Below, piece by piece: positions 1 through 991 of a DNA stretch of 20,838 nt. The stretch is from a virus. Numbering within the stretch: position 1 is the first letter of the stretch; every line of letters begins with the position of its first letter. The notes under the pieces were generated by a model. That model was not told where the DNA came from, ran no database searches, and saw nothing but the letters and a program-made list of their open reading frames with translations. Where the stretch lies: positions 1 to 20,838 of the IMG/VR virus record IMGVR_UViG_3300005043_000011; one strand, given 5' to 3'. The position numbers and the translations under genes are program-made.

Positions 1-766
1 ATTTGGTGCCGTTAGATTTCGGGCCTCTTCCCATATTGTGATCAGTGTTTGAACAATTGAAGATTGCCGTTTTAATATCCGATACCAGATACCCGTCGCT
101 CAATCGTTTTTTTATTGCCTTCGTTCGTTTGTCAGAAAACGCAGTGTTTGATTTCTTGTTCATCACCTCAAGCCAGTAATTAAAAATATCGGTTACCGGG
201 TCTTTGTTTTCTGACATTGTCATTTCGTATGAGTCCAAGTCACCCAATGCGATTTGCTGATCATCATTGTTTGCTGACAAGTCTCTTGATTTATTCTTAT
301 CTACTCTACTCTCTTCTACTCTCTTCTCTTCTTGCATGGGTTTCGCTGACTCAGTCATGATTGAGTCATGACTATTTGGCGTTTCGTCATGATTATTATG
401 CGTTTCGTCATGACTTTTGCGGAATTGATCAATTATTGCTCTCATTTCCTTGTTGCTTGTCATCGACTTGTCTATTCGCTTGGCCAACTTGAGGCACGTT
501 ATCTTGCCATCTTTGTCCTCAAACAATCCTAAGCTGACGAATGTTTGCATCATGTCGGTAACCTTCGCGGAGGTGGATCCGGTGTTTCTAGCAATGATTC
601 TTGCGTCATGCTCAAGCTCAAAGGTAGCGCAATCCTTGTCAACTTTGTTTGTTATTAGCTCAAGGCAATACCAGTATAAACCGTAACCCTCAAGCCCATA
701 ATCAAGCAAAACATCCTGCAATTTTGCGTCCATATGGGCATTAGAATCATGCTTGTACCACTTCAT
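1..766 (-). CDS. Phage replication initiation protein, DUF4373 (Lin1244/Lin1753-like) N-terminal domain, 3' end missing
   Basis: Reading leftward from ATG at 766-764, an open frame runs about 255 codons to the window edge without a stop, so the C-terminus is missing. The first 100 residues (MKWYKHDSNAHMDAKLQDVL, then GLEGYGLYWYCLELI) are typical of the winged-helix DUF4373 domain of phage replication initiators. Residues about 118-165 form a hydrophilic linker with a repeated SHDE/NHDE pattern and an acidic/basic EEKRVEESR stretch. A second conserved region starts near residue 190 (DIFNYWLEVMNKK, then DKRTKAIKKRL). The start has a strong GGAGG six bases upstream and overlaps the stop of the upstream gene (TAATG). 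The family is thought to bind the phage origin and help load host helicase; here that role is inferred. The linker DNA holds iteron-like repeats, as in lambda O. Confidence 0.8.
   Translation of the reverse strand, partial: MKWYKHDSNAHMDAKLQDVLLDYGLEGYGLYWYCLELITNKVDKDCATFELEHDARIIARNTGSTSAKVTDMMQTFVSLGLFEDKDGKITCLKLAKRIDKSMTSNKEMRAIIDQFRKSHDETHNNHDETPNSHDSIMTESAKPMQEEKRVEESRVDKNKSRDLSANNDDQQIALGDLDSYEMTMSENKDPVTDIFNYWLEVMNKKSNTAFSDKRTKAIKKRLSDGYLVSDIKTAIFNCSNTDHNMGRGPKSNGTK
301..333. other. Pyrimidine-rich tract beside the iteron-like array
   Basis: Thirty of 33 bases on the + strand are pyrimidines, built from a 10-bp period unit CTACTCTCTT (306-315, 316-325, with partial copies on each side). 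On the coding strand it is a purine tract encoding part of the EEKRVEESR linker. It lies 22 bp from the TCATGA array. Strand-skewed tracts of this kind can ease unwinding or form triplex structures; that role is speculative here. Confidence 0.45.
355..413. repeat. Iteron-like array of four TCATGA palindromes (candidate origin)
   Basis: TCATGA occurs at 355-360, 366-371, 387-392 and 408-413, with start spacings of 11, 21 and 21 bp, that is one, two and two helical turns. The 21-bp units at 366-386 and 387-407 match at 18 of 21 positions and both end in GCGTTTCG. The array lies in the linker region of a replication initiator gene, the place where lambda-type origins carry their iterons. The repeats are seen directly; the origin role is inferred. 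The alternative is a repetitive protein linker (SHDE/NHDE). Confidence 0.55.
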
Positions 767-962: not shown

Positions 963-991
963 ACAATAGATCAAAAAGAATATGCTGTCAA
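963..991 (-). promoter_or_regulatory. Leftward sigma70-like promoter for the regulator/replication operon
   Basis: On the minus strand, a perfect TTGACA (991-986) is followed after 17 bases by TATTGT (968-963, 4 of 6 to TATAAT). It would start RNA roughly 20-25 bases before the 933 start codon. Its -35 box is one arm of the inverted repeat TGTCAAT (986-992) / ATTGACA (1004-1010), whose other arm is the -35 of the rightward promoter. Confidence 0.5.

Follow-up and report, generated by a model that had tools for sequence, protein, structure and literature searches.

The initiator gene and its surroundings

The sequence that we analyzed (hereafter the window) is the complete IMG/VR record IMGVR_UViG_3300005043_000011, a virus fragment of 20,838 bp, at whose left end lies a leftward initiator gene of the Lin1244_N/DUF4373 type (2..766, minus strand; 255 codons visible, truncated by the end of the record). 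This gene was recognized by a match to Pfam PF14297 (E = 3.8e-8, 34.4 bits against a cut-off of 25); its protein additionally matches PHROG replication-initiation and O-like families, and the Pfam search reported no Rep-type family. Residues 1-97 (476..766, minus strand) are predicted to form a winged-helix DNA-binding domain (AlphaFold2 pLDDT 78), for which every Foldseek E-value was weak. A second structural comparison gave general winged-helix matches only, CRP-type domains with a Z of 9.3 over residues 23-94, and a profile search of PDB sequences with this domain found no significant match. On the same strand there follow residues 98-112 (431..475), which contain DKSMTSN..MR and covary with the type of iteron present, a repeat-bearing linker, and a C-terminal domain at approximately residues 183-246 (29..220).

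This C-terminal part matches other O-like PHROGs and shares 65.6% identity with the initiator of Vibrio phage 234P9, whose own N-domain is an unrelated DUF1376 and in whose linker ATGCGAACGCAT recurs every 21 bp, three copies in all. Some relatives have the C-terminal domain of lambda O; in the initiator of phage XM1 (locus L011), this part is homologous to lambda O, with 36% identity along 100 aa (E = 7e-21). The domain presumably recruits a helicase or helicase loader. The window's own downstream neighbour lies beyond the record end, so the relevant gene order comes from relatives only: in 13 annotated relatives, the majority of those examined, the next gene is of helicase or helicase-loader type (DnaB-type helicase, IstB/DnaC-type or other P-loop ATPase, or replication protein P), and in several others, e.g. 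L007, L011, L012, L014 and L021, it is of unknown function.

Initiators with other N-domains were also found to carry linker repeats of about 21 bp (L270 1021-1881, with a DUF1376 N-domain, and L271 967-1836), which suggests that phased repeats inside the gene may be a general feature of phage initiators. In two further initiators (L083 2501-3529 and L111 771-1622), a T5orf172/GIY-YIG nuclease domain is inserted after the DNA-binding domain and ahead of the iterons. The arrangement recalls the nuclease ICP1 Odn, which has a DNA-binding domain like that of RepA and cleaves the origins of satellites (PMC8263062).

Upstream of the initiator gene, a leftward 55-residue ORF (766-933) overlaps the initiator start and has no match in Pfam or PHROG. 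Positions 934-1034 separate the leftward initiator genes from rightward recombination genes and hold divergent promoter-like sites among inverted repeats, with TTGACA at 1005 (plus strand) and 991 (minus strand). One promoter-like site directed toward the initiator gene (963..991, minus strand; TTGACA-17-TATTGT) matches the consensus at 10 of 12 positions, and the count of such sites in the region is not above that in shuffled sequence.

A helically phased iteron ladder within the gene

Within the linker, and reading in the coding direction on the minus strand, copies of the palindrome TCATGA begin at coding positions 354 (408..413), 375 (387..392), 396 (366..371) and 407 (355..360), the last two constituting a conserved 11-bp pair. 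The original prediction had described these four sites, with spacings of 11, 21 and 21 bp and two near-identical 21-bp units, and we recovered all of them, locating the units at 365-385 and 386-406. The array does not stop at four, however: two degenerate sites extend it, namely TCAGCG at coding position 418 (344..349), 11 bp after the fourth copy, and CCATGC at coding position 428 (334..339), 21 bp after it. The former position reads TCATGC or TCATGA in homologues L011, L097 and L015, and the latter is TCATGC in most homologues. A 10.5-bp ladder fits all six window sites within about 1 bp. Under synonymous recoding of the window linker, 0.9 copies of TCATGA are expected, and the chance of finding at least four is P = 0.002.

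We compared the window with homologous loci from isolated phages (20 loci, from Vibrio, Pseudoalteromonas, Pantoea, Escherichia and Pseudomonas phages), virus contigs (80), bacterial-genome contigs (6) and one nearer match, which left 96 distinct genes once duplicates and short pieces had been taken out. Neighbouring TCATG[AC] sites in these genes are spaced by 10, 11, 21, 22, 32 or 42 bp in 156 of 157 cases (6, 100, 39, 2, 8 and 1 instances, respectively, with a single outlier at 98 bp), counts that come from related loci and thus do not represent independent events. TCATGA occurs at a density of 10.6 per kb in the linkers and 0.18 per kb elsewhere in the same genes. Codon usage follows the hexamer as well: the residue preceding His-Asp may be S, N, R, G, H, K or Y, yet the DNA still reads ..T CAT in 104 of 105 instances, and Val or Ile preceding Met is encoded by GTC or ATC in 132 of 132, compared with 11% and 24% for the same codons elsewhere. 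In phages XM1, 1.154.O (L012) and vB_VpM-PP270 (L014), five sites at 11-bp steps occupy all three reading frames.

As judged from these comparisons, the conserved entity is the DNA rather than a protein repeat, because the 11-bp TCATGA pair is present in 71 of the 96 genes, whereas synonymous recoding yields a mean of 2.4 and a maximum of 8. The expectation that TCATGA spacing would be kept while the encoded linker varies is thereby borne out, with hexamer and helical spacing held constant as residues, C-terminal domains and site number change; the homologues show the opposite of a pattern in which the SHDE/NHDE protein repeat persists and the DNA palindromes are lost. N-domains across the set diverge to about 45% identity with that of the window, and several kinds of C-terminal domain are represented.

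Among complete or near-complete relatives that we scanned (phages 1.082.O, BS5 and XM1), each genome has one TCATGA cluster, located within the initiator gene. Cumulative GC skew in the same three genomes tracks gene direction and lends no support to an origin. The composite motif GTCATGA-N4-GTCATGA-N5-TCA was found in 64 virus loci, with 48 sites sharing a frame with the initiator motif in a motif test; three further initiators (L277, L323 and L333) were recognized by inspection, and locus L276 is cut at its edge. Among the rest are 11-bp tandem arrays lying between genes and a single site within a gene of L279. The latter (L279 7792-8418) is a primosomal/DnaD-like phage gene, unrelated to Lin1244_N, in which 11-bp phased TCATGA copies are followed by A+T-rich DNA. 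Tandem arrays of 11-bp units with GTCATGA, placed outside long reading frames, lie at L305 ~787, L311 ~14063, L327 ~7066, L291 3629 and L295 1906.

The AGANN tract and the different iteron types

Adjoining the last iteron is a purine-rich tract of eight AGANN pentamers (293..332, minus strand), reading AGAAG AGAAG AGAGT AGAAG AGAGT AGAGT AGATA AGAAT on the coding strand, which we propose as the unwinding element. A skewed 33-mer with 30 pyrimidines at position 301 had been noted originally and was reproduced here, and only one other place in the window equals it in skew; its limit was set too short, the AGANN run reaching 8 bases further, and the 10-bp period ascribed to it gives way to a 5-bp unit, the self-identity of the window tract being 0.70, 0.75 and 0.78 at lags 5, 10 and 15. 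Scored as a run with at least 4 of 6 AGANN units, the tract is the only one in the window. In homologues, identity is about 0.65 at lags 5, 10 and 15 and 0.21-0.40 at other lags, and exact tandem runs of seven and eight units are commonest.

Two further scans enlarged the set to 150 distinct genes, of which 132 carry an AGANN run of at least 4 of 6 units, compared with 0 of 150 control stretches; the remaining 18 lack a clear tract. Individual AGA units are spread almost evenly over the three reading frames (259, 251 and 223). In 83 of 94 genes, the last iteron and the first AGANNAGA start 7 bp apart, and the tract region, on the 3' side of the iterons, has an A+T content of 0.71-0.76 and a purine content of 0.69-0.83 over 40 nt. 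Using a threshold of at least 5 of 6 units, we found the tract of the initiator gene to be the sole run in the genomes of phages 1.082.O and BS5; the XM1 tract falls below this threshold.

The same tract is preceded in divergent relatives, which also keep the ladder, by different repeats, namely TCCGA, TCCGGA, TCCCGACA-like sequences and CTTTAAG. Counting five-base repeats at lags of approximately 10.5n against a synonymous null applied within each class, we obtained 862 observed vs. 136 expected, 190 vs. 14, 42 vs. 5.5 and 13 vs. 0.8, the last from a class of only two genes and the second and third from non-TCATG classes; class sizes are approximate because classes were assigned partly from these repeats and partly by hand. 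Few five-base repeats occur at control lags in the iteron classes. Among genes left unclassified by the spacing rule, the lag test peaks again at 10-11 and 21-22.

Iteron type goes together with a short stretch of the protein. The TCATG class (n = 105) can be told from the TCCG/TCCCG classes (n = 30) by residues 100-105, and completely so by residues 100 and 104; genes of opposite class can have 81% identity over residues 1-97 and only 7% over residues 98-112. These residues come after the wing of the predicted winged helix, and the covariation suggests that they may take part in reading the iteron. Joint inheritance without such a function is also possible, because residues 98-112 are encoded right beside the iterons. 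More tentatively, and as a proposal that we regard as somewhat less than an even prospect, the iterons might constitute, together with residues 98-112 and the AGANN tract, one contiguous, exchangeable origin-specificity cassette, in which a 15-residue arm behind the winged helix would read the iteron. The pentamer tract, common across classes, would then be a general strand-opening element on which initiator or helicase assembles every 5 nt, similar in kind to the DnaA-trio yet a different element.

A candidate origin, its alternatives and related systems

Taken as sequence and by analogy, the segment is very probably a phage replication origin embedded in the gene of its own initiator, on the plan of lambda O and ori-lambda. 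Using its N-terminal winged helix and residues 98-112, the initiator would bind the iterons along a single face of the DNA; the resulting array would bend or strain the DNA and melt the AGANN tract, upon which the variable C-terminal domain would recruit the helicase or loader. As happens in lambda, transcription running leftward may help, the TTGACA promoter-like consensus match being the candidate promoter. We infer binding, melting and loading from likeness to lambda and plasmid origins.

Phased palindromes would also suit a transcriptional regulator, and regulator genes (Rha, antirepressor) often adjoin the initiator gene, such that the repeats might instead be operators for the initiator or another phage regulator, with the origin located elsewhere. 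We consider this unlikely, given that the array lies some 350 bp within the gene at a fixed distance from the AGANN tract and that the type of iteron follows residues of the initiator itself, whereas the genes around it vary without constraint; autoregulation may nevertheless accompany origin function. An RNA element in the mRNA, whether a structure or a protein site, is a very improbable conserved feature here: palindromic copies can pair, and for three of the four segments folded the structure is more stable than in shuffled versions (z = -2.7, -3.0 and -4.2), but palindromes pair trivially, the fourth segment is unremarkable (z = -0.9), the folds differ among homologues and an RNA element predicts no 10.5-bp ladder. 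RNA structure was rejected on the ground that homologues share no common fold.

Three of the window sites lie in one frame within a 7-residue unit, as they would if a protein motif repeated in a flexible linker (SHDE/NHDE, KIRLD) had yielded the DNA repeats through coding. Steps of 11, 10 and 32 bp nevertheless shift the frame, the XM1 sites cover all three, codon choice is fixed where residues vary, and AGANN units occur in every frame. No protein repeat can cause the array, because 11-bp steps run through all three frames; as sole cause it was rejected by spacing and recoding, codon choice and AGANN frame counts, and we give it scarcely any credence. As for a chance cluster in one low-complexity linker, for which the window alone gives only P = 0.002, the same ladder in 96 distinct genes rules it out and leaves it a negligible probability.

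If the embedded-origin reading holds, it would predict the origin to the base for more than 100 marine or enteric phages and virus fragments from metagenomes, in which the initiator is annotated merely as DUF4373 or hypothetical. The matched variants of initiator and iteron could provide a natural series for reading the recognition code, and a defined tract of 5-bp repeats would bear on the mechanism by which initiators separate the DNA strands. Our search of the open-licence literature on DUF4373, Lin1244 or TCATGA phage replication found no account of this origin.

An origin embedded in its initiator gene is a known plan. In lambda and Stx phages, iterons, an A+T-rich tract and then a helicase-loader gene are found at and beyond the middle of the initiator gene (PMC7466680, PMC5043065), and the window family shares with lambda the order of iterons followed by an A+T-rich tract with a purine bias in the coding strand, mid initiator gene. 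What differs from lambda is iteron size, spacing and the pentamer tract: lambda has inverted repeats of 18 bp placed every 20-24 bp, whereas the iterons of the window family are 6-bp palindromes on a 10.5-bp ladder, and the 18-19-bp inverted-repeat iterons of lambda-type origins are absent from this family. On the AGANN score, the lambda O gene attains no more than 2 of 6. Although both the window protein and lambda O match PHROG 345, comparison of the N-domain with the single lambda O sequence gave an hhalign probability of 0.1 and no alignable similarity.

In SPP1, gp38 binds direct repeats within gene 38 by an A+T-rich unwinding element, with gp39 as loader and gp40 as helicase (PMC6316719). 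Gene 38/oriL is thus similar in layout to the window segment, but belongs to a different host group and has a second origin, oriR, beside it in the system. Iteron plasmid origins (RK2, P1, R6K) have helix-phased direct repeats by an A+T-rich region (PMC5043065), and helically phased repeats adjoining such a region are likewise found in the window family; the plasmid origins, however, use a plasmid Rep and DnaA sites, while in the window family the coding sequence that holds the repeats is that of a winged-helix initiator from a phage. The AGANN tract may further resemble the DnaA-trio (cited in PMC5043065) as a short tandem motif at a fixed distance from double-strand binding sites, with a unit of 5 bp rather than 3. 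Finally, in the PLE satellite RepA/ori and ICP1 Odn, DNA-binding domain and iterons change together while the C-terminal domain is shared (PMC8263062), and the exchange of origin cassettes proposed above would resemble the conflict between satellites and origin-directed nucleases known in Vibrio. The PLE origin is intergenic, with semi-palindromic iterons of ~30 bp and a RepA_N domain, whereas in the window family segment and iterons are contiguous in one gene.
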